A stretch of DNA of 64,000 nucleotides from Ilex aquifolium. Its lineage: Eukaryota > Streptophyta > Magnoliopsida > Aquifoliales > Aquifoliaceae. The position numbers and the translations under genes were made by a program. Positions within the stretch are counted from its first letter, which is position 1. Every line of letters starts with the position of its first letter. This document shows, one piece after another, positions 11,219-64,000 of the stretch. The notes beneath the pieces were generated by a model, which searched no databases, was not told the DNA's origin, and was given only the letters and a program-made list of their open reading frames with translations. Where the stretch lies: contig OX637394.1 in NCBI GenBank assembly GCA_951799425.1, positions 33,144,001 to 33,208,000 on the forward strand. The letters run 5' to 3'.

Positions 11219-11397
11219 ACGTTCGAACGTTATTGGCGTTCGAACGCCAATAGTGAAAAATTTTGATTTACGTTCGAACGTCACTTTGGCGTTCAAACGT
11301 TGGTTGCTCCCAGTACTTTTTCATTTTCATCAGAGCTCTGCAGACACCAAAGTACTGGGACTCCCTCACGTTCGAACGTCTATTAACGTTCGAACGT
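11219..11397 (-). promoter_or_regulatory. Palindrome array ACGTTCGAACGT in the B LTR U3
   Basis: Perfect ACGTTCGAACGT sites lie at 11219-11230, 11270-11281, 11368-11379 and 11386-11397. A 22-bp perfect palindrome centred on TTCGAA lies at 11231-11252, and a near-match lies around 11287-11300. An inverted pair CCCAGTACTTT / AAAGTACTGGG sits between them. The array ends just upstream of the TATA box. The role is unknown; a binding site for a dimeric protein is one possibility. Confidence 0.7.
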
Positions 11398-11789
11398 CAT
11401 CCCAGTTTCTGCTGAAACTTCCAGTGAAGTTTTTTCCTATTTAGAGATTGATTTGGAAAATTTTCGTGAAATACTCTTTTGTAGCCCTGGAAGTATGCTA
11501 TCTACTTTCAAAAGTTCAGAGCCAACGGACATTAGCATAAAAAGTTATGATCAAAATACTAGGACGTGTCCAAAATCCTTTCTACTCAAGTTTTCTCTTA
11601 AATGTGCTTTCATTCCAAAAATCTTCCTAGCTTCTAAAACATACCCTATTACACCGCCTAAAATTTTTATTTCTACTTTTCCAATCTACCAAATTCAAAC
11701 ACACATCACTACACATATCCCCATTTTTACAACAATTATTTACTATATATCTATATACATATATAAAAGAAAAAATGCGGGGTGTTACA

Positions 11790-11810
11790 ATCCACCCCCC
11801 TTAAAGAAAG
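11790..11810 (-). other. Polypurine tract of family B
   Basis: On the minus strand AAGGGGGGTGGAT abuts the LTR start. A second copy follows the LTR that ends at 18687. Confidence 0.85.
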
Positions 11811-11830
11811 TTTCGACCTCGAAACTTACC

Positions 11831-14800
11831 TCAAGTAGCGAACAAAAATGGATACTTCTCCCGCATTTCTTGCTCCGGTTCCCATGTAGCTTCCTCCACT
11901 CCATGGTGTTGCCACAAAACCTTCACCAATTTGATAACTTTGTTGCGAAGCACTTTTTCCTTGGCGTCGAGAATTTCTACCGGTTGTTCTTCGTAGGTTG
12001 TTCTGTCTTGAATTTCAATCTCCTCTAAGTTCACGACTAGAGTTGCATCCGAGTGACACGTTCTCAACATGGACACGTGGAACACATGATGTACTCCGGA
12101 CAGCTGGGCTGGTAGTCGAAGTTGATATGCCGCCTTGCCTACCTCTTTGATTACCTCAAACGGTCCGGTATATCTTGGTGCTAACTTCCCCTTCTTGCCG
12201 AATCGAAACACGCCCTTCTTGGGTGACACCTTGAGAAATACGTAGTCTCCCACCTTGAATTCTAAGGGTCTTCGTCTGTGGTCCGCATAGCTCTTTTGTC
12301 TACTTTGCGCCGTCTGTAGCCTCTCTCGGATGAGTGGAATCTTCTCCGTAGTTTCTCGAACAATGTCCGGTCCCAACAAACTACTCTCGTCGGCTTCTAA
12401 CCAACACGTCGGTGATCGGCATGGTCTTCCATACAATGCTTCATACGGTGCCATCCCAATACTTCCCTGATAGCTGTTGTTGTAAGCAAACTCCACCAAC
12501 GGTAAGTGGTCGCTCCAACTCCCCTTGAAGTCCAACGCGCAAGTGCGTAACATATCCTCCACAATCTGTATCACCCTCTCGGATTGGCCATCCGTTTGGG
12601 GATGAAAAGCCGTACTGAAGTGTAACTCCGTCCCCATCGCTTGTTGCAGACTCTGCCAGAATCTCACCACAAACCTAGAGTCACGATCTGACACAATCGA
12701 GAGCGGAACGCCGTGTAACCTCACTATCTCACGGATATACAGCTGGCTCAAAGTCTCGAATGTATCCGTGGTCTTCATACCCAAAAAGTGAGCGGACTTG
12801 GTGAGTCTATCCACAATGACCCACACTGCATTATGCCCGCGCGACGTCCTTGGTAAACCCGACACAAAGTCCATGGTGATGTGATCCCACTTCCACTCTG
12901 GAATAGGCAAAGACTGTAGGACTCCTCCTGGCCTTTGATGCTCAATCTTCACCTGCTGGCACACTGCACATTTTGCCACATACTTGGCCACATCTCGCTT
13001 CATTCCCCTCTACCAGTATTGAAGCTTCATGTCCCTATACATCTTTGTGCTACCGGGGTGGATAGCAAACTTGGAGCGATGACACTCTTCAAGTATTTCC
13101 TCCTTTAGGGACGAATCATTGGGAACACATAGCTTCTCCCCATATCTCAACTCTCCATTCTTCCAAGACCATCCTTCCATCACTTCTCCATTCTCCAATC
13201 GGGCTCTAATCAAATCGAGTTCCGAATCCAGGCATTGCAACTCCACCACTCGTTGCAAAAGCGTCGGTTGAGCTATAAGGTTGAATATATAGGGTTGATA
13301 CACCAGTCCATCCACCCATAGATCGTACTCCTCCAATGCATCAATCATTTTCCACCTATTTACCGCAAGAGAATTGATTTCACCCCGAGACTTCCTGCTA
13401 AGAGCGTCGGCAACTACATTGGCCTTCCCCGGATGGTAGTTGAGCGTGAACTCATAATCTTCCAAGTACTCAATCCACCTTCTCTGCCGGAGATTCAAGT
13501 CTTTCTGTGTGAAGATATACTTGAGGCTTTTATGGTCCGAGAACACTTGAAATTTCTCCCTGTATAAATAACATCTCCACAACTTAAGAGCAAACACCAC
13601 CGCAGCTAGCTCCAAGTCGTGTGTGGGATAATTCTGCTCATGCACCTTGAGTTGCCTCGAGCCATAAGCCACTACCTTCCCTCCTTGCATTAGAACGCAT
13701 CCCAAGCCTCGTAGGGAAGCATCAGTGTAGACATCGTAGCCTTCCCCACTACTCGGAATAATGAGGATAGGTGCCGTCGTCAACTTCTCCTTCAAGGTGC
13801 GGAAAGCTAGTTCACACGCTTGAGTCCACAAAAATTTCTCCCCCTTCTTTGTAAGGCGAGTCATCGGCATCGCAAGCTTGGAGAACCCTTCCACAAACCT
13901 ACGATAATAGCCGGCTAACCCCAAGAAACTCTGTACTTCCGTCACGTTCTTCGGTGGTTCCCATTTCATCACGGCCTCAATCTTTATGGAATCGAATGCT
14001 ACTCCTTGTTCGGACACAACATGGCCAAAGAACTTCACTTCCTTTATCCAAAACTCACACTTGCTCATCTTCGCATATAACTTATGTTCTCTCAATGTTT
14101 GTAGCACAATAGAGAGATGACGAGCATGTTCCTCCTGAGTCTGTGAGTAAACCAATATGTCATCAATAAACACAATGACAAATTGATCGAGGTAAGGCCG
14201 GAAGACTCTGTGCATTAAATCCATGAAGGCTGCGGGGGCATTAGTCAATCCGAACGGCATCACCGTGTACTCGAAATGACCATACCGGGTACGGAAAGCA
14301 GTCTTAGGAATATCCTCCTCCTTAATCCGCAGCTGATGATACCCCGTGCAAAGATCAATCTTGGAGTAATACTTCGAACCCTTCAACTGATCAAATAAGT
14401 CATCAATTCTCGGCAACGAATACTTATTCTTCACGGTAACCCGATTCAACCTCCGGTAATCCGTGCACAACCGTAGAGTCTCATCCGTTTTCTTCACAAA
14501 GAGGACCGGGGCTCCCCAGGGTGAAGTGCTTAGACGGATAAACCCAATCGCCAACAAATGATCCAACTGCTTCCTTAGCTCCTTCAACTCCAAAGGTGCC
14601 ATCCGGTAGGGAACAATAGATATGGGTTCGGTTCCCGGATAGAGATCGATCTTGAATTCAATTTCCCTATGTGGCGGTAATCCGGGTAATTCCTCAGGAA
14701 AAACATCCGAAAACTCCGATACAATTAACACCACATCCGTGTGGAGTTTATCCTTGTTATCTCCCATCAAGCTAGCTAAGAAAGTCAATTGACTTCCTGC

Positions 14801-15256
14801 TTTCGCTTTTAAGAATCTACTACCCGTAGTAGGAAATGGATGGAAAGAATCTCGGTTATTCACAAAACTAAAAATGACTCCTCCCGGTAACTGAAATGTA
14901 ATCCGCTTGCGGAAACAATCCATTACCGCCCGGAAAGCGGACAACAAGTTCATCCCAAAAATCACATCATACCCCTTTATCTCTAAAGCAATCAAATCCA
15001 CAATCAATTCGTGCTCCCCAATGCGAAGCACGCAACCCTTGCAGACTCGGCTAGTATCTAACCGTCCTCCCGTGGGCAAGCTAATATTCATAACATGCTC
15101 TAGCTTCGCGAAACTCAATCCCAAATCAAGTGCATATGTCGTGCGTACAAATGAGTGTGTTGCACCGGGGTCAAATAATATTCGGGCCCAAGAATTATAA
15201 ATAAGGACGATACCTTCCACAACGGCGTTGGCAATGTCCTCCTCCGGCTGAGTCAA
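11831..15256 (-). pseudogene. pol: Family B pol: protease, RT, RNase H, integrase, chromodomain
   Basis: Domains in order, numbered from the Met at 15256: protease-like [11 protein letters not shown] (27-36), RT with [13 protein letters not shown] (about 261-273) and FIDD (363-366), RNase H starting at [10 protein letters not shown] (510-519) and ending [11 protein letters not shown], integrase zinc finger HRSKFAIHP...CAVCQQVK, integrase core TMDFVSGLP / SDRDSRF / [14 protein letters not shown] module [14 protein letters not shown] and chromodomain [20 protein letters not shown]. Together these copy the element RNA and insert the cDNA. The set and order are those of Tekay/Del chromoviruses. 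Gag lies upstream in the same phase, joined by a short proline-rich linker, an arrangement that would suit read-through translation as some retroelements use. The frame is nearly whole, with about one or two breaks. Confidence 0.92.
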
Positions 15257-15364
15257 AGCAAATACTCGCCCTTGGTTGGCGCCGCCGGGGGCGTGAGCTT
15301 GTATCGGTTGCTGCGGTGCAGGCCTCGGTGGTGGTGGTTGGGCTGCTGGTACCTGTCTGGTGGT

Positions 15365-16357
15365 CTAGATAGGCCTCGGAGGTGGAAAAACTGGGCAATG
15401 CATCCGAAAATGTCCCACACCTCCGCATGCAAAGCAGGATCGTGGGGTAATACCGGCTCTAGTCTGAATGTCTCCCTCTCCTCGGGCTGTCAAAATTCGT
15501 TGTCCACATGTCTGGTCTGGGCGACGGTATGGTGTCGGTCTCTGTGCCCCACTAGTGCTAGCCCCCGTCCGGATCGGACCTCCTCTCGAGAAGCCCTGTC
15601 GTCTCTGGCTATCCTCTATGTCTCTCTCTACCAGTGCAGCTCTGTCCACCAGGTCCACAAAATCACGGATCCTGAGAGCTACCAACTTCTCCCTAATTAC
15701 GGGCCTCAGACCCTGCTCGAAGCGCTTGGCCCTGTCGGCCTCAGTAGATATAAATCCCGTAGCATAACGGGAGAGCTCGTCGAACCGCCTCTCATACTCA
15801 GCCACGGTCATACCACCTTGTCGTAATGCAAGAAAATCCGCCTTCATTCGGTCTCTGACCGATTCAGGAAAATATTTATCTTGGAAAAGTTGATCGAATT
15901 CTTCCCAAGTGCGTGTGTCGGTGTCCCTTCTCCTCTTTATGGCATCCCACCAATAGTCGGCCTCCCCCTCAAACAGGTAGGTCGCCAAACCCACTCTCAA
16001 CTCCTCGGCAACTCCCATGCCGTCACAGATCTTCTTCACTCGGCGGATCCATCTATCCGCCTCCAAAGGATTGGAGCTCCCTTGGAAGTTGGGTGGTCGT
16101 TGTCGTAAGAATTCCCGAAGAGCTATCATCCTTCGGTCTCCGTTCCCATTGCCCGGTACTTGAGCGAGAGGATGAGCTCCACCATTGTGGTTGTTGTTAC
16201 CATTTTGGCTTTGTACCAAAGTGGTGAGCTCCCTCAAGCATTGGTAAATGCCTTGCATGGTATCCGGAGGTGGTGGTGGTGGTGGATTTGCTTGACCTCC
16301 ACGGCCACGCCCACGCCCACGTCCGCGTCCCCGTGTACCGTCCATCCTGCACATCAA
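15365..16357 (-). CDS. gag: Family B Gag (central unit)
   Basis: An uninterrupted 330-residue frame starting about 190 bp inside the primer site. It shows the same Gly-Arg and proline-rich N-terminus, retrotransposon Gag domain and CX2CX4HX4C zinc knuckle as the copy at 8467-9459. An earlier Met lies two codons before the MDGTRG start, so either may be used. It is about the usual size for a chromovirus Gag. This is the most intact coding part of the array. Confidence 0.9.
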   Translation of the reverse strand: MMCRMDGTRGRGRGRGRGRGGQANPPPPPPPDTMQGIYQCLRELTTLVQSQNGNNNHNGGAHPLAQVPGNGNGDRRMIALREFLRQRPPNFQGSSNPLEADRWIRRVKKICDGMGVAEELRVGLATYLFEGEADYWWDAIKRRRDTDTRTWEEFDQLFQDKYFPESVRDRMKADFLALRQGGMTVAEYERRFDELSRYATGFISTEADRAKRFEQGLRPVIREKLVALRIRDFVDLVDRAALVERDIEDSQRRQGFSRGGPIRTGASTSGAQRPTPYRRPDQTCGQRILTARGEGDIQTRAGITPRSCFACGGVGHFRMHCPVFPPPRPI

Positions 16358-16530
16358 TCCATAATTTAGTTCCCTTGATGTGCAAGATATAAACTAAAGT
16401 GATATGTAGGATGTCTTGATTTAAGCATAAGGCATATACAAAATTTAACTTAACAATTTCCTTCACCCTAAACCTACATCTCTAGTGGTAATCCATAACA
16501 TACAGCTCCCATGTAAGACCTAAAGCCTAG

Positions 16531-16542
16531 GCTCTGATACCA
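16531..16542 (-). other. Primer binding site of the central B element
   Basis: TGGTATCAGAGC on the minus strand, four bases from the LTR at 16547, complementary to initiator tRNA-Met. Confidence 0.9.
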
Positions 16543-16546
16543 ACTT

Positions 16547-18687
16547 TGTAACACCCCAAAACACACCCTGGACGGCATTACATTCTAAAACATTCATATC
16601 ATGAGAGCACTAATATAATTCCATCAATAAGAAAATTTTTCCATTCATCATCCATAGAATTTACAAGATCATCCCAAAAGAATAAGCCAAGCTATGACAT
16701 TTACATCTCAAAAATTAATTAAAGTTGCACAGCGGAATAAACAAAAGAAACTAGACTACACAATGTTCCAAAAGAATGTCCTAGTCTAGTACAAAAAGGA
16801 AGGAGGTCGCTCTATCCGTCCACCTCGGGATCCACACTCCCGTCAAGTGGAGTCTCCCAAGTAGCGGGCTCCTCGACCCTTACGTCCTCCTCAAGTAGGT
16901 AATCTGAAAAATGTTAGCGGTAGGGGGTGAGCACAAAGCTCTGTAGAAAAATTCTCTCAAACCCATACAAGGTTTAGAAAAACATTTAAAACGGTCGGTC
17001 TCATTTTTAACATAACATAGATACATAATTTGAAATAAAACAGTGACATTTAAAAAGGATCTCAAGTTTATGTAAAAACATTACTTAAATGAATAAACGA
17101 GTACCACATACAAATAATCACCATTTATTTGCCATAAACACTTTCCAACAATTCTTTCGGTAGGTGGCATACTTTAGGGTAACCTCCACCCCCATTATTT
17201 CGTTAGGTGGCATACTTTAGGGTAACCCATTCATTCGGTAGGTGGCATACTTTTGGGTAACCTCCACCCCCATTCATTTCGGTAGGTGGCATACTTTAGG
17301 GTAACCTCAACCCCCATTCATTCGGTAGGTGGCATACTTTAGGGTAACCTCCACCCCCATTCTTTCGGTAGGTGGCATACTTTAGGGTAACCTCCACCCC
17401 ACCCTTTAGGTCATCTTTGATTCTCAAGCATCCTTACAAGGAACCTCTTGGGAAGGGGTGAGCATCCTTACAAGGAACCTCTCACTCATGTGCATCACAA
17501 ACAACCCAACCAAGCTTACAATTCCAATATTGATTTCAATTTACAATCATCTATCCAAAATCCCCCAAAATATATCATGTAATAATTCCACAACCAACAA
17601 AGAAAATACATGAGATCACAATAACATCATTGTTCAACCCAACACAAAGCACTAAGGGTTCGAAAATCCATAATAAAGAAAGCATTTAAGAAAGAAATAC
17701 ATCACTCTCCAAAAATGAGGGTTTTAAAACTAGAGAAGAGATTTCATGGGTATTAAACCCTAGCTTTGTTCAAACCATGTAATCTTTGCCAAAAAACCTA
17801 AGAGATGATGATTTCATAACATATATATACCATTGATAGCCAAAGCATACATATATAAATACCTTAGCCTCAATGTAAGAGAGTGAGAGAAAACCCCTAC
17901 CTTCTTCTTCCTTAGTGTTCTTTGAGGAACTTGAAGTTTTGATCCTCTTTAATGTGTAAATCCTCTCTTGATCTTGTGTTTTCCCCTTCTTTCTTCCTCT
18001 CTAAGATTATCTAGGGTTAGAAATGTTGAAATGAGGCAAAGAGAGGCGTCCTTATGTATTTATAGTGAAAGAAATGGCCTCCTGTGCGCGATTCTGAAGT
18101 TCAGAATTCGTAACTCACGTTCGAACGTTATTGGCGTTCGAACGCCAATAGTGAAAAATTTTGATTTACGTTCGAACGTCACTTTGGCGTTCGAACGTTG
18201 GTTGCTCCCAGTATTTTTGCATTTTCATCAGAGCTCTGCAGACACCAAAGTACTGGGACTCCCTCACGTTCGAACGTCTATTAACGTTCGAACGTCATCC
18301 CAGTTTCTGCTGAAACTTACAATGAAGTTTTGGCCTATTTAGAGATTGATTTTGAAAATTTTCGTGAAATACTCTTTTGTAGCCCTGGAAGTATGCTATC
18401 TACTGTCAACATTTCAGAGCCAACGGACATTAGAATAAAAAGTTATGATCAAAATACTAGGAAGTGTCCAAAATCCTTTGTACTCAAGTTTTCTCTTAAA
18501 TGTGCTTTCATTCCAAAAATCTTCCTAGCTTCTAAAACATACCCTATTACACCGCCTAACATTTTTATTTCTACTTTTCCAATCTACCAAATTCAAACAC
18601 ACATCACTACGCATATCCCCATTTTTACAACAATTATTTACTATATATCTATATACATATATAAAAGAAAAAATGCGGGGTGTTACA
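16547..18687 (-). repeat. Family B LTR, 5' LTR of the central element
   Basis: 2,141 bp, with the same TG...CA ends as 9649-11789. It has a polypurine tract and a short piece of integrase/chromodomain coding sequence on its right (18688-18770), showing that a further unit once continued there. Palindromes ACGTTCGAACGT and the 22-bp one (18129-18150) are conserved. Confidence 0.92.
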
Positions 18688-18770
18688 ATCCACCCCCCTT
18701 AAAGAAAGTTTCGTCCTCGAAACTTACCTCAAGTAGCGAACAAAAATGGATACTTCTCTCGCATTTCTTG

Positions 18771-20491
18771 CAAGGAACCTCTCACCCTTACAAGTAGCAT
18801 CTTTACAAAGAACCTCTCACCCTCTAGGTTTGGTTTCTCAAGCATCCTTACAAGGAACCTCTTGAGAAGGAATGAGCATCCTTACAAGGAACCTCTCACT
18901 CATGTTTGTCCAAACAACCATACAAGAATACAATACCAACTATTCTCTCAAATACCCAACAATTCCACAAGTCTCCTATTTACAAGCAATTTCCAAGAAA
19001 AATCCCCAATTCTCAAAAGTGGTTTTACAAAGAGCAATATAAGAAAATGTACGAGAGACCATCATAAATATCATTTTGTTGTTCAATATGAAACACTAAA
19101 GTTTGAAATCAAGGACCTATGAGTAATCAAACTTTGGAATCATTACAAATGAATATCAAGCTTGGAGTATAAAGAATAAAGGCGCACCAAGCTTGAAAAT
19201 CATGGACAAAGGAGAAATTAAGATTTACGGAACAATCATGTATGGAAATAAATAACAAACGACTATCAAGGTGTGAAATCAAGAACAAATGATTATGAAG
19301 CTTAGAAATCAAGACCAAAAGAACACTCAAGTCTTTGAACCAAGAATAAAGAATATCAAGTATTGAATATCAAGCTTAGAATTCAAAACAAAGGAACAAT
19401 CATTTATTGAAAGGAATGATCATGTATTGAAATCAATAACAAAGGAGAAGTCAAGAGAAAAACACATTTCCCTTGAAGACTAGGGTTTGGTAGTAAGCAA
19501 GGAGATTTAAGGGTTACCCAACAATCACAATATTTTTCACATGGCATTAATTGCAAGAATAGCAAGAATTAAGGATTGGATAGCATACATATAACATTTA
19601 GAGTGAAGAGATACATATAAATAAACCTAGCCTCAATGTAAAAGAATGGAAGAAAACCCCTACCTTGGTGTTCTTGAAATCTAGGGTTTGATCTTGAATC
19701 ACTCTTAAATCCTTTGTTTTTCCCTTTTGATCTTGTGTTTTCTCCTTCTTTATTCTTTTCTAAGACTCTCTCTAGGATTCCAAGGGGTGTGAGTAAGGGT
19801 GTAGTGAAAGTGTAGAAGAAGAGAGTAGAAGAATGGTGTTCTTGAGTAATTTCGGTTTTGATCTCTATAAGGGGTAACTCTCTCAAGATCTTTGTGTTTT
19901 TTCTCTCCTTTTCTCTTCTCTTAGGGCTCTAAGATGTTTGGGGTGAGAGTGGGATGGAAGAATGGGTCAAATGAGGTTTAAAAGGGTGTTTTAAAACACC
20001 AAAATCCCGACTTTTACTGTGCCAAACTTCGGGCGTACCGGTACGCTGTACTAGTACCGGTATCATGAGATACACTTTTGTAGCCCTAGATGTCTACTAT
20101 CTACTGTAAAAATTTCAGATCAATTGGACATCAGGATCAAAAGTTATGATTTAAATACTAGAAGGTGTCCTAACTCATTTTTACCCAAATTTTCTCTAAG
20201 TGTGTTTTTACTCCGGAATACTTCCTAGTTTCCAATACACCCCACATTACCTCTCCCAATGTTTTTCGACCTTCCGGATTCAATGGAGAACTTATTTTGA
20301 CCTTACAATATTTAGAAAAGTCCATAATCCCTCTTCTCAAGTTTACACACCTTCGAAACTTAACTTCCCAATTAATTTGTATCTCTAGTTTTTGCTTTTA
20401 TTCCTACCGTCACTACACAGATCCACATTTTTACAACAATTATTTACTATATATCTATATACATATATAAAATAAAATGCGGGGTGTTACA
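18771..20491 (-). repeat. Family C solo LTR, right part
   Basis: It continues the LTR that starts at 5479 and ends GCGGGGTGTTACA, followed by the duplicated AACAT. It contains hairpin repeats of the CATCCTTACAAGG type (18790-18900), including a variant at 18801-18810 (CTTTACAAAG), a donor-like GTAGGGG near 19660 on the minus strand and GTACCGGTAC-type palindromes near 20036-20070. Confidence 0.85.
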
Positions 20492-21611
20492 AACATTAAA
20501 TTCATTCAATACATATTCATTGTCAAGAGTTGAACCCCAAGAGTTGGAACCTCCAAAAAAGTTGAAACCCTCCCCAGAACCTCTACCCAAACAGTTGGAA
20601 CCTTTACCCAAAAAAGTTGGAACCTCTACCAAAATAGTTGGAACCCTTACCCAAAAAAATTAGAACACTTACCCAAAAAAATTGGAACCCCTACCCAAAA
20701 AAGTTGGAACCCCTCCCCCAAGAGTTGGAACCCCTACCCCCAACAGTTGGAACCCCTACCAAAAATGTTGGAACCCCTCCGCCCAACAGTTGGAACTCCT
20801 CCCCCAAAGAGTTGGAACTCCTCCCCAAGAGTTGCAACCTCTACCCAAAAAGTTGCAACACTTACCCAAAAAAGTTGGAACCCCTACCCAAAAAAGTTGG
20901 AACCCTTACCCAAAAAAGTTGGAACCCTTACCCAAAAAAGATAGAACTGATCCCCTCAAGAGTTGGAACCCCTACCCCCAACAGTTGGAATCGCTACCCA
21001 ACAAGTTGGAACTTCTACCAAAAAAGTTGGAACTCCTCCCCAAGAGTTGGAACCCCTACCCCCAACAGTTGGAACCCCTACCCTATAAAAGTCGGAACTA
21101 AATTGTATGTTTATTTTGATGTTGAGTTGTTAAATGAAACCTTTAAATGTTTAATTTAAACCTTTAAAATCTCACCATGAAATCTCACATGATTTGATGA
21201 ATTAAATGTTTATTGAATGAAATTGTATGTTATTTTGATGTTGACTTGTTAAATTAAACCTTTATTGGATGATTTTCGATGGTAATTTGATAAATTGAGG
21301 AAAAAAAAAATCTTTTTTGAAGGATTTTCCATGTTAATTTTATGAATTGAATGAATTTGAATATAAATTGGATGAGATTTAATGTTATTTAATGTTAATT
21401 TAATGAATTAAATGTCTATTAGGTAAAATTAAATGTTGATTTGAAGAATTGAATGTTAATTTGGGGTAAATTTGATGAATTGAGTATTAATTTGATGAAA
21501 TTGCATGTTACTTGTTCATTTAATAAATTGAATATTTATTGGATGATTTTGAATGTTAATTTGATGAATTATAATATCAAAAGGTTAAAAGTGTAATATT
21601 AAAGGGATAAG
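20492..21611. repeat. AT-rich fold-back repeat, copy 2, split by a minisatellite
   Basis: 20492-20523 matches 41606-41638 of the fold-back family (inverted arm). 21102-21611 is a direct arm with GAATTGAATGTTAATTTG units, ending in the start of the core (AAAGTGTAATATTAAAGGGATAA). The 22-bp minisatellite sits between the two arms. Confidence 0.65.
20524..21101 (+). repeat. 22-bp minisatellite, locus 1
   Basis: About 26 units by length of GTTGGAACCCCTACCCAAAAAA with variants ending CCCCAAGA or CCCCCAACA. Since 22 is not a multiple of three, the array cycles through all frames and all three forward frames are open over long stretches. I do not read these frames as genes. A second locus, same orientation, is at 32273-32909. 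Confidence 0.92.
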
Positions 21612-29956: not shown

Positions 29957-29983
29957 GTATTGAAAGAGAACATGAAAACTAGT

Positions 29984-30006: not shown

Positions 30007-30010
30007 CTGA

Positions 30011-52813: not shown

Positions 52814-53124
52814 TAACTTAGTATCCCAAAGTAGGGATCAAAGTTGACCATTTTAGACTTCTCCCATTCTCTCACTAGTAGAGCGTGTGTGTCCAACTAG
52901 TAGACATTTACACCCTGAACCATTCTGTTCACTTGTTTTCCGACCCCCAATGTTATGTTTTCTAACCCTAGTGTCCCTTTTTCCATATACATCTTACCAT
53001 GTATATAATTCACTCAACAAGTAGCACATAGCATGTAGCAAGTAGAGCACATAACATGAAATGTACAATGAATGCAATGGTCTAGACCCATGCCCCTCAA
53101 GCCCTAGGTAAATCGTATACCTAG

Positions 53125-53136
53125 GCTCTGATACCA
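53125..53136 (-). other. Primer binding site, family A
   Basis: TGGTATCAGAGC on the minus strand, three bases from the LTR at 53140. The same site is at 47048-47059 and 59202-59213. Complementary to initiator tRNA-Met. Confidence 0.9.
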
Positions 53137-53139
53137 AGC

Positions 53140-55468
53140 TGTGACGCCCCAAAATCCGGGGGTCCATTGATTACCCATCAACCTGCGGAATACCCGTGGA
53201 TACCGAGTAACTCGATATCGCTCCGTTATACCCCATTTATCGGGGTCCATAATTGAACAAAAATCGGGCAGAGTCTCCTTTGTACGGGGAGCTCTACCCA
53301 AAACTCAACCTGTGCAATATATATTCAAATGACCCATCCGAGGCCCAATATAAAGCAATGACCACCCCGGGTCCATTTATAAGTAAACATTGGCCACACC
53401 GGGTCCAACTATCCATACCATTATCAAAACATGCAATGTTGTATCAAAAATAGTCCATAACAGTTCTATTACAATTCTTTTACATATACATGTCCAAAAA
53501 ACATAGTTGTCACAAGTGTTTTACATTAACGCAAAATAAAGCCACATTCGACTTTCTTCAAACATGTGGGTCCAAATTGGAGCCATCTGCCGATGTATTT
53601 CTCCCACCTGAAATGTTTTCCCGTATAGGGTGAGCAACGCCCAGTAGAGTAATTTCCTACAGAGGCTACTCCCCACCTACGTGCACATGCAATGTTCACA
53701 TTCAACATTTCGTATTCACATCAACATTCCAAGTAAGAATATGCAACTCCATATTAGAAACTACCATGTCATGCTATGAAATGAGATGGAACTCACTCAT
53801 GCAACTTTAACCCGAGTCCTCACCGCTTCCCATAACACAATGCAATGCCAATGTGTAATGAATCCGTTAATTGACGAAAAATCCACCCAATGATCGTTTG
53901 AAATAAAAGTTATTTTATTATAAAACCAAATCATTGATGGGTGTTACTCATTGAATGAGTACTTTATAAATCAAAATCTTGTGTCTTGGATCGGGCAACG
54001 GATTTTGGTATCTCAACCACCGGTTCCGTAAACACCAGCACTTTTCTGGAATTTCACCGCCGGGAAGTGCCTGAACCATGTGACCGGGTTTTGCACCCGA
54101 GGGAGAGTCTAGCCCTACTTGCTATACCCGACACAAGTTTTTCTTTCTTTCATGCAACCATGTGACTCAGTCGGATTTTCAACCCAACTTTCCCGAGCCC
54201 CCCATCAATCACCAAGAATGGTGTTTGATTAACCATGCATACACACACCCACACTCATGACTCATGCCCATGAATGTGATGTCAATTCCATGTCCATATT
54301 TCAATACATGCCTAATGAACAATTTCTACATATCAATGTATACCATGGCAATTTATATCATATGTATATAATCACCATAATCCGTTACAAGGTCAGTATA
54401 TTCAAGAGAATAAATCAACACTTCATCAACATGTTATCACATAATACATGCTAATATCACATTTCATTCACAAGGCACAAACCCACATGATTATTACATA
54501 AACACTTCCATATATCAAATCAAGTCCAGACTTAATATATACCATTTCAAATAATAAAATAAAAATCAGAATATGTGATTTTTACATTTCCAATTATCGA
54601 AACATCCTAGAAATCACAAACTAGCAATTTCTAACTACCAATTCACACTAGAATTCATCCTACCCATTTCCATAACACCAACCATAATGGAAAAATGTTA
54701 GAAATGTCCAAAACAGCCCATATAAACCCTATGGACACCTTAGGTTAGAAATAAACCCGAGTAGGAGGAAACCCTACCTCTTGGAGCGTAAAACAACCGG
54801 TAGAACCTCCAAGAACAAGATTTAAGCCCAAATCTTTGATTTTCCCAAAATTCCGTCTTTGGATCTTCGGTGAAATCAGCTCTTTTTGGTATGTACGCGT
54901 AGCCCTAGTCACGTAGATGAACTTTGACTTCTGGACTGACGAATTCCGACGGACGGAACTCCCGGAATCGGAGCGGGAAGGTTAAAGATTTTTTTTTTTT
55001 TCTTTGGTTTTGGGCGGCTGAAAAGGCTGAAGTTCAGCTGATATTTTTTCAAAAAGCTGATTTTTTTAGGATATTTATAGGCAAAAATGTGCGGTCCACA
55101 TCGCACCGCATATTTTCGACTTCCGGGTCCGTTTTTCGTCCCGAAACGATTCATTATAACTCGGATTAAGTTCAAATTAATTTTATTTGAAATTTAACTT
55201 AATTTTAGGGAAATTTTATAAAATCCATTATTGGGGACCTTTAAAATGAAATTCGCCACGCAGTCGTCTCGAACGACGTGCAAAAATCTGACTATATCGG
55301 AATTCGACGAAATTTGACAGGGTGACTAGATTCTGCGATACGAATCCAACAGCGAACTCCGTTTCCTCATCCGAGGTCTAGAGCATGAGTATTTCAAATA
55401 AGCATTAGGATGGCAAATGACCATTTTGCCTTTATTCACAAAAAATTCAAAATTTCTCGGGTTTTACA
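53140..55468 (-). repeat. Family A LTR 3 of the array, shared
   Basis: 2,329 bp, the same length as LTR 2 and differing from it at about two positions by eye. It is the 5' LTR of the unit on its left and the 3' LTR of the unit on its right. Confidence 0.93.
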
Positions 55469-55562
55469 TACTTCCCCCCTTAAAAGAATTTCGTCCCCGA
55501 AATTTACATACACATACACACGTAACCGCATGCATATGCTACAGTCATGTAATAGTAAATGA

Positions 55563-58500
55563 CTATAAAAACGTACCTCTATCCTCAAATAAGAAAGGAT
55601 AATTGGCACGTATAGTGTCCTCGCGCTCCCACGTCGCCTCTTTCACTCCTCGGTGCTGCCATAACATCTTCACTAGCCTCACGGTCTTGCCTCGCAAAAC
55701 CTGATCTCGGCTATCCATGATACGCACCGGTCCCTCCTCGAAGGTCCCATCCACATCAACAACAAGCTCGCCCCAATCCACCACATGAGTCGGATCTGGG
55801 GTGTATTTCCGGAGCATAGAGACATGGAACACCGCGTGAACACTCAATAAATCTGGCAGTAACGCCAACTGGTAAGCGACTGTACCAACCCTCTCAAGTA
55901 TCTCAAAGGGCCCGATATACCTCGGTGACAACTTTCCTCGCTTGCCGAACCTGACCACTCCTCTCGTAGGCATCACCTTCAAGAAGACATGATCTCCCAC
56001 CTCAAACTCTAGAGGTCGCCGCCGTCTATTGACGTAGCTCTTCTGCCGACTCTGAGCCGTGAGAAGACGCTTCCATATCAAGCCCACCTTCTCTGAGGTG
56101 TCTCTAACCAAGTCCGGACCCGTAGAAGGTCTCTCTCCAACCTCTGTCCAACAAACCGGAGATCGACATGACCTCCCATATAGTGCCTCATAGGGTGTCC
56201 TCTGTATGCTCGCCTGATAACTATTGTTATAGGCGAACTCCACCAAGGGTAAATGATCTTCTCAGCTACCCTTGAGATCTATGACACATGCCCGTAGCAT
56301 GTCCTCTAATGTCTGAATGGTCCTCTCAGATTGACCGTCCGTCTGGGGATGAAAAACAGTGCTCATCATCAGTTGTGTCCCCATGGCTCGTTGGAAACTC
56401 TCCCACAATGAGCTGTAAACCTGGGATCCCGATCCGATACTATAGATACGGGTACCCTATGCAACCGGACAATCTCCCGTATATATAACTTGCAGAATTC
56501 CTCCAGTGTGAAGGTCATCCGCACAGCCAAAAAGTGTGCCGACTTCGTAAGCCGGTCCACTATCACCCATACCGCATCATGTCCCCGCAATGTCCGTGGC
56601 AAGTGAGTCACAAAATCCATCGTGACATGTTCCCACTTCCACTCAGCTACCTACAATGGCTGGAGTAACCCTGCTGGTCTCTGGTGTTCAGCCTTCACTT
56701 GCTGACACGTGAGACATCTACTAACAAAATCGACAACCTGCCGCTTCATCCCATTCCAATAATACTGGCGACGAAGATCATGATACATCTTCGTGCCCCC
56801 TGGATGAACCGCAAAACGAGAGCAATGGAACTCCTTAAGGATCTCCTCTCTCAGATCCGCCAACTGAGGAACCACAACCCTTCCTCGATACCGAAGACTA
56901 CCATCCGAGTGAATGGCCCAGCCCTCGTCACCTGTACCTGCCTATACACGGTCCCGGATGGACAATAGCTCTGTGTCCTGACTCTGGGACTCAATAACCC
57001 TACTCAGTAGGGAAGGCGTAGTCACCAAACTCCCCAAAGTACCCTGAGCCTGACCCATATAGCGTAGCCCGAACTGTCTCACAGTCTCTAGCATCCGCCA
57101 CTCCCGGGAAGCCACACTAGCCAAGACTCCCCGTGACTTCCGGCTGAGTGCATCAGCCACCACATTTGCCTTACCGGGGTGGTAATGCAAATTGAAGTCA
57201 TAATCTTCCAGGGACTCCATCCACCTGCGTTGCCTCATGTTGAGGTCCCGCTGTGTAAAGATGTACTTCAGACTTTTGTGGTCTGAAAACACCTCGAACT
57301 GCTCACCGTATAGATAGTGGCGCCAAGCCTTCAAAGCAAAGACAATGGCCGCCAACTCCATGTCATGTGTGGGGTAATTTTGCTCGTGGTTCTTTAACTG
57401 CCGAGAACCATAAGCCACCACCCTCCCGGACTGCATCAAGACACATCCTAGTCCGTCCTTCGAGGCATCACAATACACAGTGTACCTCTGTCCCCTTTCC
57501 GGGACTATCAATATAGGGGTTGAAGTATACCTCCTCTTTAACTCCTGGAATGCCTTCTCGCAAGAATCATTCCACTCGAACTTGACCTCTTTTCGAGTCA
57601 ACCTGGTCATAGGAGCAGCTAGTCGGGAGAAGTCATCAATAAACCGCCGGTAATACCCTGCCAATCCCAAGAAACTGCGTATCTCGAAGACTGACTTCGG
57701 CCTCTCCCAATTCATGACTGCCTTAACCTTCTCTGGGTCTACGGATACACCTGAAGCTGACACCACATGTCCCAAAAACTTCACCTCAGTCAGCCAAAAT
57801 TCAAGCTTGCTGAACTTGGCATACAACTGATGGTCTCTCAAGGTCTGAAGAACAATCTTCAAGTGACCCTCATGCTCCTCCTCAGACTTGGAGTAGATCA
57901 AGATGTCGTCAACAAATACTACAACAAATTGATCAAGGTAGGGTTGAAACACCCTATGCATGAGATCCATGAATGCTGCCGGAGCATTCGTCAATCCGAA
58001 AGGCATGACTGTGAAATCGAAATGTCCATACTGCGTCCGAAATGCCGTCTTAGGGATATCTGCCTCCCTAACCCTCAACTGATGGTAACCGGTGCGGAGA
58101 TCTATCTTGGAGTAGACCCGCGCCCCTCGCAGCTGATCAAACAAATCATCAATCCTCGGCAAAGGGTACCTATTCTTGATAGTAACCCTATTCAACTGTC
58201 GGTAGTCTATGCATAGCCGAAGGGTCTTATCCTTCTTCTTGGCAAACTGCACCGGAGCGCCCCTAGGTGAGGTGCTCGGCCTAATAAAGCCCCTGTCCAA
58301 CAATTCCTGTAATTGGACCTTGAGTTCTTGCAACTCAGCAGGCACCATCCTATGTGGAGTCATAGAAATGAGCGATGTACCTGGGTGCAACTCAATAGTG
58401 AAGTCTACATCCCTATGTGGAGGTAATCCCGGTAATTTATCCGAAAAAACATCCTCATACTCACAAACCACACGAGGTAGACCCAACTCCTACTCGCCTC

Positions 58501-58890
58501 ATTCTCCAGGGTAAGGCTTGCTAGCCAACCCATCAACTGTCCGTGCCATCTAGAGTCGTACACGGCTTGGGATAAAACATCGTGCTTATCCCCTTGAAAC
58601 ATGAAACAAACACCTTTCGGTGTGTGGGCAGTGACCCTCTTCCGATCACAATCAATGACAACTCAGTGTGCCGCCAACCAATCCATCTCAAGGATGACAT
58701 CAAACTCCGACATGTCCATGACCCTAAGGTCCACGGTGAGTAGAATCCCCGAGATCTCTAACTCACAACCCCAACATATTTGATCAATACATACCCTAGC
58801 ACCTAGGGGAGAACTCACATGCAATGGCTCTTCCAAGGTTCCAACCTCTAAGCCCAAATCCTTCACACAAGTCAAATAATAATAGAGCAC
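55563..58890 (-). pseudogene. pol: Family A pol remnant, unit 3
   Basis: The same domain series as unit 2 with about 0.5% base differences: protease-like piece, RT with FVDD, RNase H, integrase and chromodomain. The breaks visible in unit 2 are in the main shared with this unit, so they predate the duplication. Gag is again absent. It is a fossil copy with several breaks. Confidence 0.92.
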
Positions 58891-59216
58891 TAACTTAGTA
58901 TCCCAAAGTAGGGATCAAAGTTGACCATTTGAGACTTCTCCCATTCTCTCACTAGTAGAGCGTGTGTGTCCAACTAGTAGACATTTACACCCTGAACCAT
59001 TCTGTTCACTTGTTTTTCGACCCCCAATGTTATGTTTTCTAACCCTAGTGTCCCTTTTTCCATATACATCTTACCATGTATATAATTCACTCAACAAGTA
59101 GCACATAGCATGTAGCAAGTAGAGCACATAACATGAAATGTACAATGAATGCAATGGTCTAGACCCATGCCCCTCAAGCCCTAGGTAAATCGTATACCTA
59201 GGCTCTGATACCAAGC

Positions 59217-60574
59217 TGTGACGCCCCAAAATCCGGGGGTCCGTTGATTACCCATCAACCTGCGGAATACCCGTGGATACCGAGTAACTCGATATCGCTC
59301 CGTTATACCCCATTTATCGGGGTCCATAATTGAACAAAAATCGGGCAGAGTCTCCTTTGTACGGGGAGCTCTACCCAAAACTCAACCTGTGCAATATATA
59401 TTCAGATGACCCATCCGAGGCCCAATATAAAGCAATGACCGCCCCGGGTCCATTTATAAGTAAACATTGGCCACACCGGGTCCAACTATCCATACCATTA
59501 CCAAAACATGCAATGTTGTATCAAAAATAGTCCATAACAGTTCTATTACAATTCCTTTACATATACATGTCCAAAAAACATAGTTGTCACAAGTGTTTTA
59601 CATTAACGCAAAATAAAGCCACATTCGACTTTCTTCAAACATGTGGGTCCAAATTGGAGCCATCTGCCGATGTATTTCCCCCACCTGAAATGTTTTCCCG
59701 TATAGGGTGAGCAACACCCAGTAGAGTAATTTCCTACAGAGGCTACTCCCCACCTACGTGCACATGCAATGTTCACATTCAACATTTCGTATTCACATCA
59801 ACATTCCAAGTAAGAATATGCAACTCCATATTAGAAACTACCATGCCATGCTATGAAATGAGATGGAACTCACTCATGCAACTTTAACCCGAGTCCTCAC
59901 CGCCTCCCATAACACAATGCAATGCCAATGTGTAATGAATCCGTCAATTGACGAAAAATCCACCCAATGATCGTTTGAAATAAAAGTTATTTTATTATAA
60001 AACCAAATCATTGATGGGTGTTACTCATTGAATGAGTACTTTATAAATCAAAATCTTGTGTCTTGGATCGGGCAACGGATTTTGGTATCTCAACCACCGG
60101 TTCCGTAAACACCAGCACTTTTCTGGAATTTCACCGCCGGGAAGTGCCTGAACCATGTGACCGGGTTTTGCACCCGAGGGAGAGTCTAGCCCTACTTGCT
60201 ATACCCGACACAAGTTTTTCTTTCTTTCATGCAACCATGTGACTCAGTCGGATTTTCAACCCAACTTTCCCGAGCCCCCCATCAATCACCAAGAATGGTG
60301 TTTGATTAACCATGCATACACACACCCACACTCATGACTCATGCCCATGAATGTGATGTCAATTCCATGTCCATATTTCAATACATGCCTAATGAACAAT
60401 TTCTACATATCAATGTATACCATGGCAATTTATATCATATGTATATAATCACCATAATCCGTTACAAGGTCAGTATATTCAAGAGAATATATGAACACTT
60501 CATCAACATGTTATCACATAATACATGCTAATATCACATTTCATTCACAAGGCACAAACCCACATGATTATTAC
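59217..60574 (-). repeat. Family A LTR 4 of the array (partial)
   Basis: It matches the 3' part of LTR 2 and LTR 3 with about eleven differences by eye, more than those two show between each other. A G-family LTR begins at 60575 and interrupts it; the rest may lie beyond the window. Confidence 0.9.
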
Positions 60575-60960
60575 TGTAAACCCCCGCATGTTTATAATTA
60601 TATAGTAAAGTATTTGTTTAGTGATTCATATATATAGATAATGATGTAAGAATAAATCATATGGATGGTAATAGTAGGAAAAGAATACTAGAGATGCATG
60701 TTGATTTTCTAAGTTAAGTTCGAAGACGTTTAAACTTGGAAAGGGTGATTAGACAAAATTCCAAATACTTTGAGGCCAAAATAAGGTCTCCATTGAATCC
60801 GGGAGGTCGAAAAACATTGGGAGAGGTGATATGACTTGTATAAGAGGTTAGAAAGGATTCCGGAGTTAAAATACGCTTTAGAGTGAAGTTGGGTAAAAAG
60901 TATCTTGGACACCTTCTAGTATTTTGGCCATAAATTTTTATTCTTATGTCCAATTGATCA
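60575..60960 (+). repeat. Family G LTR, left piece
   Basis: It starts TGTAAACCCCCGCATG and follows the F/C LTR pattern up to CCAATTGATC, where organelle-like DNA interrupts it. The LTR resumes at 61945. Confidence 0.85.
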
Positions 60961-61944
60961 ATATCGTATAAAGCTGCTGCTACTTCGTCCCCTTCGTTGC
61001 CTGCTTCAATCAATCGTTTTTAGAGGTCTTTAGTTGATTTGCCCATTTTTCTACGTTTTTTGGCATGTCATTATGATGATAAGAGGGGGTTATGAAAGAT
61101 CTTGTCAAATGATAAAGGAAAATGGTCTGATTATCCACTTTTGTCCGTAGCTCCTCTCTCAGAAAGACGTCAGAGACTGTACTGCCAGATTATCAGGAGC
61201 TTAGAGGCGAGGTTCCGCTTCGAGCGAAGCGATCTACAAAGAGAAAACCTCCTCCGGGGGGGGTTTGGGGAATCATAGTCCAGACTAAAGAAAGTCTGGA
61301 GCTCTAACAAGGCCCTATTCCTTCTGTGAAGAAGGAATAGAGTAAGGCCTTGACCGAAAAAAAATCGGTTTTTTCCCTAACCCAAGTCCCATCAAAAGCA
61401 TTTTTTTCCTTATTTCCCCTGGTCCCTTAAGACACCCAATTCCCCGGTTTGGAGCCACCTTCTTCGCCCAGCTTGCTTTTTACCATGCCCATACCATGTA
61501 GCAATGGCGAATCCAAGTTAGACAACAGAAACTATTGGACCAACTTTCAGCTACTTCAGTCCCACGTGTCGGTTGTAAATCTAACTCGAACTTGAAACCT
61601 TGCTTGGGTATTGCGTATGTGATGTTCGAAAGCACTGTCCTGGTCTAGTCAGAGAAAGTAACTTAGTTGTCTCGGAACCTCTCTCTTACCTTTGGGGTAA
61701 AGAAGTACCGTTCCGGGTCCTTGATAAAGAACACTTGCTATTCCGGTGGGCGTTGGTGTCTGAGGGCCACGCTCCAAGTGATACAGCAAGTGAGCAACCC
61801 GATTTCTTTATCAGCAAAGGACCCACCTTGTCCAGTAACCATTCTGAGTGGGTGTACGAGACTAGGAGAAACTGCTAGATTTTCACTAAAAAACTAAGAG
61901 GATACGTACGAGAAGGCGGACATCGACGGCTGTAAGTCGGAGAC
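60961..61944. other. Organelle-like (probably mitochondrial) DNA inside an LTR
   Basis: About 984 bp with no similarity to any LTR here, precisely interrupting the G LTR. It has a GC-richer, plant-mitochondrial look: GCTTCGAGCGAAGCGATC, a series of strong stem-loops at 61279-61370 and irregular non-coding sequence. On the minus strand the left end reads LIEAGNEGDEVAAALYDI in one frame; I could not identify the protein. Related LTRs show that only about four to five bases were lost at the insertion point and that no target duplication was made, as expected for end-joining capture. The mitochondrial assignment is from memory of such sequences, not from a search. Confidence 0.6.
61279..61369 (+). 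other. Triple stem-loop in the organelle-like insert
   Basis: TCCAGACT / AGTCTGGA (61279-61286, 61293-61300); CTATTCCTTCT / AGAAGGAATAG (61315-61325, 61330-61340) enclosed by AAGGCC / GGCCTT (61309-61314, 61346-61351); ACCGA / TCGGT (61353-61357, 61365-61369) followed by a T-run. Consecutive stem-loops of this kind are typical of plant mitochondrial mRNA 3' ends. Confidence 0.7.
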
Positions 61945-64000
61945 ATTTTGACAGTAGATATTAGACATCTAGGGCTACAAAAGTGTCTCTAATGAAAATT
62001 TTCCAATTCGACTTCTAAATGGGTCAAAAATGCGCTAGAAGTTTCAACAGGCAAGTACCTTCCGGAAGGTCGATAAAAAACCTTCCGGAAGGTTAGTGTA
62101 AACAGTAACGTAAACAGTAAATTTTTTTCCAAAAGGAAAAAACTTCTGGAAGGTCTATAAAACCTTTCGGAAGGTCGATGAAAAAAACCTTCCAGTGAGC
62201 AAAACCTTCCGGAAGAACGACAAAAACCTTCCGGAAGGTTAGTGTAAAAATCCAAAAATTTCTGTTTCGCGAATGCCGGCTCTTCCTCCACTATAAATAC
62301 ATAATGTCCTCTCTTTTGCCCTCATTTTCACCACTCCAAACCCTAGAAACATTAGAGAGGAAGGAAAGAAGAGAAAAACACAAGATTTAGAGAGATTTAC
62401 ACCCTTTTAGAAATCAAAACCCTAGTTCTTCAAGCACACCCATCTTCACCATCTTCACCATTTTATTCCATTCCTCACACCACTCTCACCCAAATCTCTT
62501 GAAACCCTAGGAGGACGAAATTAAGAGAAAAAAAGAAGGAAGGAGAATAGGAAGATTTTGAAGCTTGGGTCTTAGATTGAAGCTACAACTAAGAGGTAGG
62601 GGATTTTCTCTCATTCTCTCACATTGAGACTAGGGCTTTTATATATATATATATGTTTTTCACTCTTACTCATATATATATGGTATGAAATGCATGATTC
62701 TTGATATCCTTGCAATAAATGCCATGTTTTGAACATTGTGATGGTTGGGTAATTATTAAATTTCTCTTTTTCATCTTCAAACCTTGGTTTTAAGAAAAAT
62801 GGACTTTTCCTTCTATTTTCCTTTGTTATTGCTTTCAAAATTCTAGTGTTTGATATGGTACACCAAAATGTTACTTATGAGGATCTCTTGCTCATTTTCT
62901 TCCATCATATTATGAAACATTATATTAGAAATTGTGGAATTTGGTAATTTCTTGAAATGGTTGTGAATTGAGTATATTTTGGTTTCCTCAAGTGTATGGT
63001 TGTTGTGAGGGACTTGGATTGCCTTCGAGAGATGCCGTAGGGTGTTAGAGGTTAGTCTACCCCAGTGGGGGTGAGATGGTTTCCTAGCACTTGTAGTGGG
63101 TTGTCATTTGGTAATGAAACCACTATCGTTCACTGGAGTTCGAACAAGGGATAGTATACTTTTCCTGGGAAGGGACTCGTCACTGCCATTGGGATGGTAG
63201 ACGCTCCTTCCCAAAGTGCTTGTGATTGTGATTGTGATGGGTGGACTAGGTATAATCGTTGGGTAGATTCATGGGAAGCAATCAACATACATGGTACGGG
63301 GATGAACCAAAATATATATGGGATGATGGGTTGGATCGTCTTGGCCGGTGCATTGGTATGGGACAATGCATCGGAAGGTGCCCTTCATAAATGGTATATT
63401 GTTATGAAATTTACATTAACTTTTCATTAGATTATGGGTACGGCTTAAACTGGAGATCTACTTAAAATGTCATGTTTTCCTTCAAAATTTATATGTGCTA
63501 TTTTCCAAAAGAGACTTGTCATCTTTTACTTGTTTTAAAACCTTGTTTGGGTTTGGGAGGATTTTTCTACAGAGCTTCGTGCTCACCCCCTACTGTTGAA
63601 TATTTTCAGATTTTACTCTAGAGGAGGAGCTCGGCGTTAATGAGTCGGGCCAAGGAGAAGCTTCCTTGGAGGGATACTTAGATCCCGAGTGGGACATCTA
63701 GAGATGTCATTTATTTTTGTACTGGACTAGGGAAATTATTTTGAGACCATGTAAAGTCTAGTATTTTGTTATTCTGCTGCGTTATCATATTTAAATTATT
63801 TGGAAGTGTAATTGCCATTGTTGGGCTTATTCTTTTGATATTGTAGCCATGGCTTGGTTTATTCTTTTGGGAATGTTATTGTGAATATTACATGTGGAGA
63901 ATGGAAAATCTTTTGAGACAATGTTGTTAATCTTTGATGGATAACTGGACCCGGTGTGGTCGATATATTATAAATGCACAGGTTGTGTTTTGGGTAGAGC
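61945..64000 (+). repeat. Family G LTR, right piece (runs off the window)
   Basis: It resumes at ATTTTGACAGTAGATA. It contains a palindrome array, a TATA box (62291-62299), a predicted leader intron (62596-63609; donor AAGAG|GTAGGGG, acceptor TATTTTCAG) and, at the window end, GGACCCGGTGTGGTCGAT and GGGTAGAGC as in families A and E. The end of the LTR is not in the window. Confidence 0.85.
62057..62240 (+). promoter_or_regulatory. Palindrome array ACCTTCCGGAAGGT in the G LTR U3
   Basis: Perfect sites at 62057-62070, 62079-62094 (16 bp with flanks) and 62225-62240 (16 bp), with imperfect copies at about 62143-62154, 62163-62175 and 62203-62215. The array ends about 50 bp upstream of the TATA box. 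TTCCGGAA has the TTCnnGAA layout of a minimal heat-shock element, but other factors are equally possible. Confidence 0.7.

Follow-up and report, generated by a model that had tools for sequence, protein, structure and literature searches.

Perfect-palindrome arrays at a fixed promoter position in Ty3/gypsy-type retrotransposons of Ilex aquifolium: candidate exchangeable enhancer sites

The long terminal repeats (LTRs) of Ty3/gypsy-type retrotransposons in a 64,000-bp stretch of the Ilex aquifolium genome (contig OX637394.1, positions 33,144,001 to 33,208,000; hereafter the window, whose own coordinates are used below) carry, upstream of the TATA box, arrays of short perfect palindromes built on the cores TACCGGTA, GTTCGAAC or TTCCGGAA. 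These arrays are real and extend far beyond the window. A first-pass annotation of the window had offered two explanations, a swappable cassette recruiting dimeric factors and a DNA-level process that makes palindromes. The data favor the former, with protein binding as a prediction, and we consider it likely, with appreciable reserve, that the arrays are modular enhancers of the U3 region, predicted sites of dimeric proteins, that have been exchanged between families. In the mechanism we propose, the U3 enhancer of this group of elements would be bound chiefly at the palindromes, each array offering about 2–8 sites of 10–12 bp to a DNA-binding protein with two-fold symmetry (a dimer), which is probably a transcription regulator of the host and presumably activates rather than represses. 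The nearest site would precede the TATA box by about 57 bp, with a TCCAG co-site 19 bp upstream of a dyad in four of five classes. Families would differ in the dimer that they recruit, and the array would be swapped as a unit, perhaps through recombination or template switching between related elements, or occasionally change unit by unit, while the TATA box, leader and upstream U3 stay.

LTRs were sampled without reference to palindromes, using a pattern that covers nothing but TATA box and leader (CACTATAAATACAT, a gap, and CCCTAG), which matched 1,950 places in the genome (1,257 forward and 693 reverse). Sixty LTRs were taken from the first-listed matches, all on contig 1; two of the listed places coincided with loci L028 and L039, and other first-listed matches, mostly near neighbors resembling the second LTR or tandem copies of chosen ones, were skipped by eye. 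Loci L001–L004 stand outside the counts, and related copies are included in the counts of sampled LTRs and of clustered words. An array of at least two intact units was present in 59 of the 60 LTRs, with 2–8 intact units in each, and none of the 59 mixed intact units of two of the four words. By class, 20 arrays were C (CTACCGGTAG), 12 were g12 (GTACCGGTAC with CGTACCGGTACG), 11 were g13 (other GTACCGGTAC), 12 were B (GTTCGAAC) and 4 were G (TTCCGGAA). Counting palindromes that span 10 bp or more and whose central 10 bp include at least 4 G+C, with near-copies taken separately, we found 297 in the 13.2 kb of the promoter slot (−260 to −40) and 2 in the adjoining 20.4 kb upstream; first-order simulations matched in dinucleotide composition predict 8.4 for the slot. 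The worry attached to the first-pass annotation, that palindromes might be missing at this position in other copies or equally common elsewhere in the LTRs, is thereby answered for the slot as compared with the DNA directly upstream. The CpG observed/expected ratio is 1.10 in the slot and 0.64 upstream, with a slot G+C fraction of 0.447; the raised ratio is due, at least in part, to the CpG-rich palindromes themselves.

The position of the arrays is nearly invariant. The promoter-proximal dyad lies 53–56 bp upstream of CACTATAAATA in 54 of the 59 LTRs, across all four cores (class C, 19/20; the GTACCGGTAC classes, 19/23; TTCCGGAA, 4/4; GTTCGAAC, 12/12), and in the five exceptions (L066, L070, L077, L078, L087) a one-change unit, judged by eye, occupies that place. 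The DNA between dyad and TATA box is dissimilar among classes B, G, g12 and C/g13, so that the length of the interval is steadier than its sequence. When every tetramer between −40 and −8 and between +7 and +35 relative to a dyad was scanned, TCCA at −20 and CCAG at −19 were the sole ones present in at least half of the LTRs in four of the five classes, CCAG standing exactly 19 bp from a dyad in 20/20 C, 9/12 g12, 9/11 g13 and 3/4 G LTRs. Among 30 other arrays of the TACCGGTA/CTTCCGGAAG kinds, drawn from contig-1 sites, hand-placed stretches and the window, 21 repeated this 19-bp spacing of CCAG on one of the two strands, the runner-up tetramer reaching 5/30. We considered whether TCCAG might be a CpG-decayed palindrome half (CCAGTAG versus CCGGTAG), which fits the C class and does not fit the TTCCAGTGAG of the G class. 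Steps between units take many values (12, 13, 16, 17–18, 20–22, 31–32, 34 and 42–44 bp, and others), with no single helical period visible by eye. Separately, the interval from dyad to TATA box contains a CGCG word in 20/20 C, 10/11 g13, 12/12 B, 4/4 G and 0/12 g12 LTRs, that is, in 46 of the 59 (as GTTCGCGAAC near −20 in many C-class LTRs), and may be a further promoter element.

Abundance across the genome was gauged by exact pattern searches of all 800,232,872 bp, in which counts of repeats may be lower bounds and the pattern read backwards served as control. Two TACCGGTA cores 3–30 bp apart occurred at 46,891 places (control 26), paired GTTCGAAC cores at 18,197 (control 66) and paired TTCCGGAA cores at 10,917 (control 27), about 275- to 1800-fold over the controls. 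Toward the end of contig 1 (60648–192046) there are repeated TTCCGGAA arrays, found in either orientation and paired at spacings of about 7.64 or 7.81 kb. A survey of 264 kb, comprising the window and 200 kb (L005–L024) hand-placed at round coordinates on contigs 1–12 and including 5,950 N, was searched for clustered words, defined as 10-bp palindromes containing 4 or more G+C and occurring two or more times within 300-bp steps. It returned the four words GTACCGGTAC, CTACCGGTAG, CGTTCGAACG and CTTCCGGAAG, the junction word GTACGCGTAC and, in addition, CCTTATAAGG; the word set is therefore small. CCTTATAAGG is clustered seven times in L022 from position 1752, downstream of a CTACCGGTAG array.

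The two arms of the palindromes are coupled. Genome-wide, the symmetric words GTACCGGTAC and CTACCGGTAG occur 51,910 and 22,728 times (backwards, 907 and 353), whereas the asymmetric hybrid GTACCGGTAG/CTACCGGTAC occurs 938 times (504 + 434), not above its own backwards control (641 + 609). Hybrids make up 1.2% where about 42% would be expected if the arms were independent, and by these sequence statistics (938 asymmetric versus 74,638 symmetric) both half-sites are kept, as in a dimeric site. Among 130 distinct units with classes pooled, complementarity at ±4, ±5 and ±6 was 0.91, 0.91 and 0.65, against shuffled means of 0.61, 0.48 and 0.32; it exceeded every shuffle from ±2 to ±6, the values at ±1 to ±3 being fixed by the search word, and fell to chance level from ±7. 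Within a class the arms barely vary, so the evidence for coupling lies in the contrast between classes and in the genome counts. Such coupling, whatever the sequence, could also arise if self-complementarity itself were selected, in RNA or single-stranded DNA, with the 3’-end U3 folding or pairing for packaging, dimerization or strand transfer. Three array pieces do fold far better than shuffles as RNA (z of −6.8, −9.1 and −7.8, compared with 0.6 and −1.9 for two controls from LTRs B1 and B-prime), strong folding that follows from the palindromes. We nevertheless judge selection on pairing unlikely, since any sequence would serve for it and what we see is a handful of words in very many copies; moreover, the pooled symmetry stops at ±6, and pairing needs no fixed distance to the TATA box or to TCCAG.

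Imperfect units bear on the DNA-level alternative, in which hairpin-templated copying during reverse transcription or repair perfects palindromes and homogenizes arrays without any function. One-change units (related copies included) were of the C>T/G>A type in 8/9 cases for g12, 6/7 for g13, 6/6 for G, 8/16 for B and 4/30 for C, and the g-class pattern is as expected for decay of methylated C. The fetched loci contained 25 two-change units, not counting 22 junction words and words equal to another class. Six of them were mirrored, all C>T/G>A, and two independent deaminations could suffice to produce each. Of 28 apparently mirrored units in all, the 22 reading GTACGCGTAC had been discarded, this word being the junction of two abutting 12-bp units. 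Copying of this kind would account for the likeness of units within one array and for the mirrored variants that do exist, namely GCATACCGGTATGC in LTR B-prime and GTTCCGGAAC, not of the deamination type, within TACCGGTA arrays. It does not sit well with the restriction of palindromes to the slot, with the small share of mirrored units among two-change units and their uniform C>T/G>A type, or with one-sided units in many copies: repeated C-class variants such as the CAACCGGTAG type, with 18 counts (folded, near-copies included), and TTCCGGTA, found beside TACCGGTA 892 times in the orders counted, compared with 256 for TTCCGGAA. Change by way of asymmetric units thus occurs at ±3, which counts against a purely mutational symmetrizer. 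On this evidence the DNA-level process that the first-pass annotation had named as its alternative is the less favored of the two, and we regard it as quite improbable.

Arrays of different classes stand on the same promoter. One 57-bp TATA box and leader, identical in 20 LTRs, carries three array types (8 LTRs with g13, 6 each with C and g12), and about 30 bp before the TATA box are also common to some C and g13 LTRs (for example, L051 and L055). In a tree built from the 315 bp that precede the array (59 of the 60 rows, leaving out L075, which has no array), the classes change 6 times, with a minimum of 4 and a shuffled mean of 33.5; they are mostly lineage-bound, yet moved more often than the minimum. 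Mixed neighbors are rare, with 7 places genome-wide where CTACCGGTAG lies within 3–30 bp of GTACCGGTAC and 6 where TACCGGTA and GTTCGAAC lie within 30 bp. Neutral hitch-hiking, in which a few master elements with chance palindromic minisatellites were amplified and the arrays are passengers, draws on plain amplification to high copy number, the close kinship of the sampled LTRs and the frequency of tandem copies. Passengers would hardly be expected to show unrelated cores at an identical dyad position in separate clades, a co-site distance that is invariant though spacers differ, or hybrids at background level while both symmetric words are very abundant, and we assign this account little probability.

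Different arrays on identical leaders would also be expected if the arrays docked a silencing or anti-silencing protein, encoded either by the host (a repressor) or by the element, with an arms race behind the turnover of classes. In the parts of two reports drawn on here, the palindromes of maize Sireviruses are described as hot spots of small RNAs (PMC5311732, PMC10760457), and the holly arrays, given their predicted RNA folding, may likewise be small-RNA sources. However, the 10 window open reading frames scanned yielded retrotransposon domains and nothing further that was recognized, two frames at 28–30 kb matching nothing, and a repressor site should be lost readily, whereas the array is kept by 59 of the 60 LTRs, a sample chosen for an intact TATA box. 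We consider a silencing role highly improbable.

Enhancer arrays read by dimeric proteins remain the account that we favor. A common slot, class purity, three array types on identical leaders, background-level hybrids, symmetry that ends after ±6 bp and TCCAG at 19 bp in four of five classes all speak for it. With few words, symmetry, one class per promoter, fixed distances to TATA box and co-site, and an extent of 10–12 bp, the units resemble sites of dimeric proteins. A protein that tolerated G or C at ±5 should tolerate hybrids, and their near-absence suggests that GTACCGGTAC and CTACCGGTAG have different protein readers. The LBD, SBP, HSF and CPP families were considered as candidate readers and dropped, the papers listed for TACCGGTA having unrelated titles and the one for LBD16 with TCCGGA dealing with a vector. 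A bolder version, which we find doubtful, would have at least four homodimeric proteins share one slot and geometry and recognize the half-sites CTACC, GTACC, CGTTC and CTTCC. These proteins would form a paralogous, fast-diversifying family of host or element origin, engaged in a lock-and-key race with thousands of promoters in which whole-array swaps change the key, and the base pair at ±5 alone would separate two non-mixing keys; the two keys that differ at ±5 only have the 7 mixed neighbors noted above.

Several observations weigh against the enhancer account. One sampled LTR (L075) is missing the array, and the exchanges seen on the tree are few. Purity is not absolute, as TACCGGTA and TTCCGGAA lie within 30 bp of each other at 256 places genome-wide (control 12), many of them TACCGGTA-unit arrays with a single mirrored word GTTCCGGAAC. 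Neither is symmetry: the one-sided step GTTCCGGTAC, counted above as TTCCGGTA beside TACCGGTA, is common at ±3, so that single array units may be imperfect, and the C-class one-change units, mostly of the non-deamination type (26/30), indicate that imperfect units are tolerated. Taken singly, classes show an excess over shuffles only at ±6 in C and B, and none at ±4 or ±5. The TCCAG-19 geometry is lacking in the B arrays (0/12). Finally, the steady length between dyad and TATA box could also reflect common ancestry with few indels, and, the 59 LTRs being relatives, descent rather than selection could explain part of the constancy of the −55 and 19-bp distances.

Within the window, all three palindromes of the first-pass annotation and GCATACCGGTATGC were recovered at the places given or at most 2 bp away. 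ACGTTCGAACGT occurs 12 times, at 11219–11397, 18117–18295 (annotated as 18119–18297) and 39216–39343, and also at 22592, which had been overlooked; CGTACCGGTACG occurs 8 times, ACCTTCCGGAAGGT 3 times, and GCATACCGGTATGC, the variant of LTR B-prime that is changed symmetrically in both arms, once, at 35542. The annotated spans were right as to place, and less so as to content, some units being short or decayed: the one at 39165 carries one change, and those at 20055, 25350, 25382, 36812 and 42659 hold the 8-bp core (mostly the 10-bp word too), not the full 12-bp palindrome. Outside the arrays, the G+C-rich perfect palindromes of at least 12 bp in the window amount to CGTCAATTGACG at 59942 and, arguably, GGTGTTTTAAAACACC at 19985, within the TATA-like part of LTR C.

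The arrays lie upstream of CTATAAATA in LTRs B1, B2, E2, E, B-prime and G, in keeping with the annotated placement before the TATA box. Judged from their termini and TATA boxes, D, F2 and G are plus-strand LTRs, and B, C, E, F and B-prime are minus-strand LTRs. LTR B1 (9649–11789, minus strand; TGTAACACCCC...GGGGTGTTACA on the plus strand), delimited by termini and a repeat pair, carries a GTTCGAAC-class array at 11219–11397, which includes a 22-bp palindrome TATTGGCGTTCGAACGCCAATA at 11231–11252, and a TATA box CACTATAAATA at 11159–11169; LTR B2 (16547–18687, minus strand), delimited in the same way, carries its GTTCGAAC-class array at 18117–18295. A further GTTCGAAC-class array at 22508–22620 (minus strand), absent from the first-pass annotation, belongs to LTR E2, which ends at 23009. 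In B1, B2 and E2 the dyad stands 57 bp from CTATAAATA, and in LTR G, whose TTCCGGAA-class array (62057–62240, plus strand) precedes a TATA box CACTATAAATA at 62289–62299, the proximal dyad stands 58 bp from it. LTR B-prime (33836–36123, minus strand, delimited by termini) has a GTACCGGTAC-class array at 35499–35610 with 12- and 32-bp steps, holding GCATACCGGTATGC at 35542–35555, and a TATA box CACTATAAATA at 35439–35449, while the GTTCGAAC-class array of LTR E is at 39165–39343 (minus strand). In both, the proximal unit has decayed, a one-change unit standing at 57 bp and the first intact unit at 69 bp in B-prime and 74 bp in E.

The remaining LTRs, C, F and D, have TTTAAAA in place of CTATAAATA. 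The TACCGGTA units of LTR C (20033–20062, minus strand; LTR end at 20491) lie 44 bp from it. The GTACCGGTAC-class array of LTR F (25332–25405, minus strand, last unit decayed) lies 53 bp from it, and the GTACCGGTAC-class units at 36811–36852 in LTR D (36298–38350, plus strand, beginning with TGTAACACCCC) lie 52 bp from it; both F and D have CCAG 19 bp from a dyad. LTR F2, with GTACCGGTAC-class units at 42658–42681 (plus strand), is truncated and has no TATA-like match.

The window as a whole is a pile of Ty3/gypsy-type LTR retrotransposons, with nested and tandem repeats of retrotransposon length in self-comparison and LTR termini of the form TGTAACACCCC...GGGGTGTTACA. A profile scan of open reading frames next to the LTRs found Ty3/gypsy-type gag, RVP_2 protease, RVT_1, RNase H (RT_RNaseH), integrase and a Tf2-1-like SH3 domain, so that the Ty3/gypsy pol domains expected of a chromovirus are present; a match to the chromodomain PF00385, directly after SH3 in one of two reading frames scanned, was weak (E 0.0028, 18.0 bits against a cut-off of 25.1). 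Between LTRs B1 and B2, the coding part (11831–16357, minus strand) carries protease, reverse transcriptase, RNase H, integrase, the Tf2-1-like SH3, the weak chromodomain and gag in separate reading frames, the gag domain having been scanned in the related copy at 8467–9459. An Rfam search and a tRNA scan of the window each gave 0 matches. The stretch 6045–18771 appears to be an LTR-internal-LTR-internal-LTR arrangement of 99.3–99.4% identity whose first LTR is truncated, a two-element tandem with a common middle LTR. In 43614–60574 a unit of about 6,077 bp is repeated head to tail almost three times (99–99.5% identity), in what looks like a tandem array of a different retrotransposon. The U3 of LTR G is split by an unrelated stretch of about 1 kb (60960–61940) that looks organellar by eye. 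An identical 22-bp minisatellite occurs at 20577–21098 (24 copies) and 32272–32911 (29 copies), 11.7 kb apart, and a tandem repeat with a 76-bp unit (6.1 copies, 87% matches) lies at 27583–28046.

Two known systems invite comparison with the exchange of arrays. VANDAL DNA transposons carry family-specific short tandem motifs that are bound by element-encoded VANC anti-silencing proteins and change together between families, though these motifs are not known to be palindromic promoter sites; the holly elements differ in being retrotransposons, and no VANC-like gene was recognized in the window reading frames scanned. In the Ty1/copia elements Tnt1, Retrolyc1 and Tto1, a U3 regulatory block with tandem cis boxes is reportedly replaced between subfamilies while the rest is conserved, which the putative array exchange resembles, although the replaced blocks are not known to be interchangeable perfect palindromes at one fixed dyad position.

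Acquisition and change of promoters by LTR retrotransposons are usually argued from few families. One genome here offers thousands of related promoters (the 1,950 matches to the TATA/leader pattern) in which the putative site varies and the core promoter is constant, with symmetric versus asymmetric words as a clean internal control. Which proteins drive or police these elements thus becomes a question directly testable with four short baits.

The closest counterpart is found in the Ty1/copia Sireviruses. In the literature searched, which covers little of the subscription literature, none of the papers listed had a title pointing to palindromic arrays in gypsy elements. In the sections of Bousios et al. 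2010 (PMC2829016) drawn on here, palindromic repeated motifs (RM boxes) are described upstream of the TATA box in 13 Sireviruses, and are called Sirevirus-specific and absent from the classic elements compared. Like the RM boxes as presented there, the arrays described here consist of element-specific, dyad-symmetric palindromes, repeated within the LTR in several to many copies, varying in sequence between elements, and clustered shortly before the TATA box within a patch rich in CpG; where the RM boxes have a CpG island, the slot has the ratio of 1.10 and G+C fraction of 0.447 given above, and the palindromes themselves supply CpGs. RM boxes are reported in at least 8 copies per element, internal copies included, whereas our 2–8 intact units were counted in the LTR only. 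Unlike the RM-box carriers of that account, the elements here are of the Ty3/gypsy type (RVT_1, RVP_2, RT_RNaseH, Tf2-1-like SH3), and the cores TACCGGTA, GTTCGAAC and TTCCGGAA are CCGG- or TCGA-centered, ungapped and without the CGG-CCG signature, which Tnd-1 is likewise said to lack. Different classes on an identical leader, and the dyad coupling, fixed slot and TCCAG-19 geometry measured here, go beyond the RM-box description in those sections. Palindromic arrays upstream of the TATA box are thus known from Sireviruses, while their Ty3/gypsy-type carriers and the present cores appear to be new. The Sirevirus palindrome strategy therefore also exists in a Ty3/gypsy-type lineage, via convergence or shared host factors.

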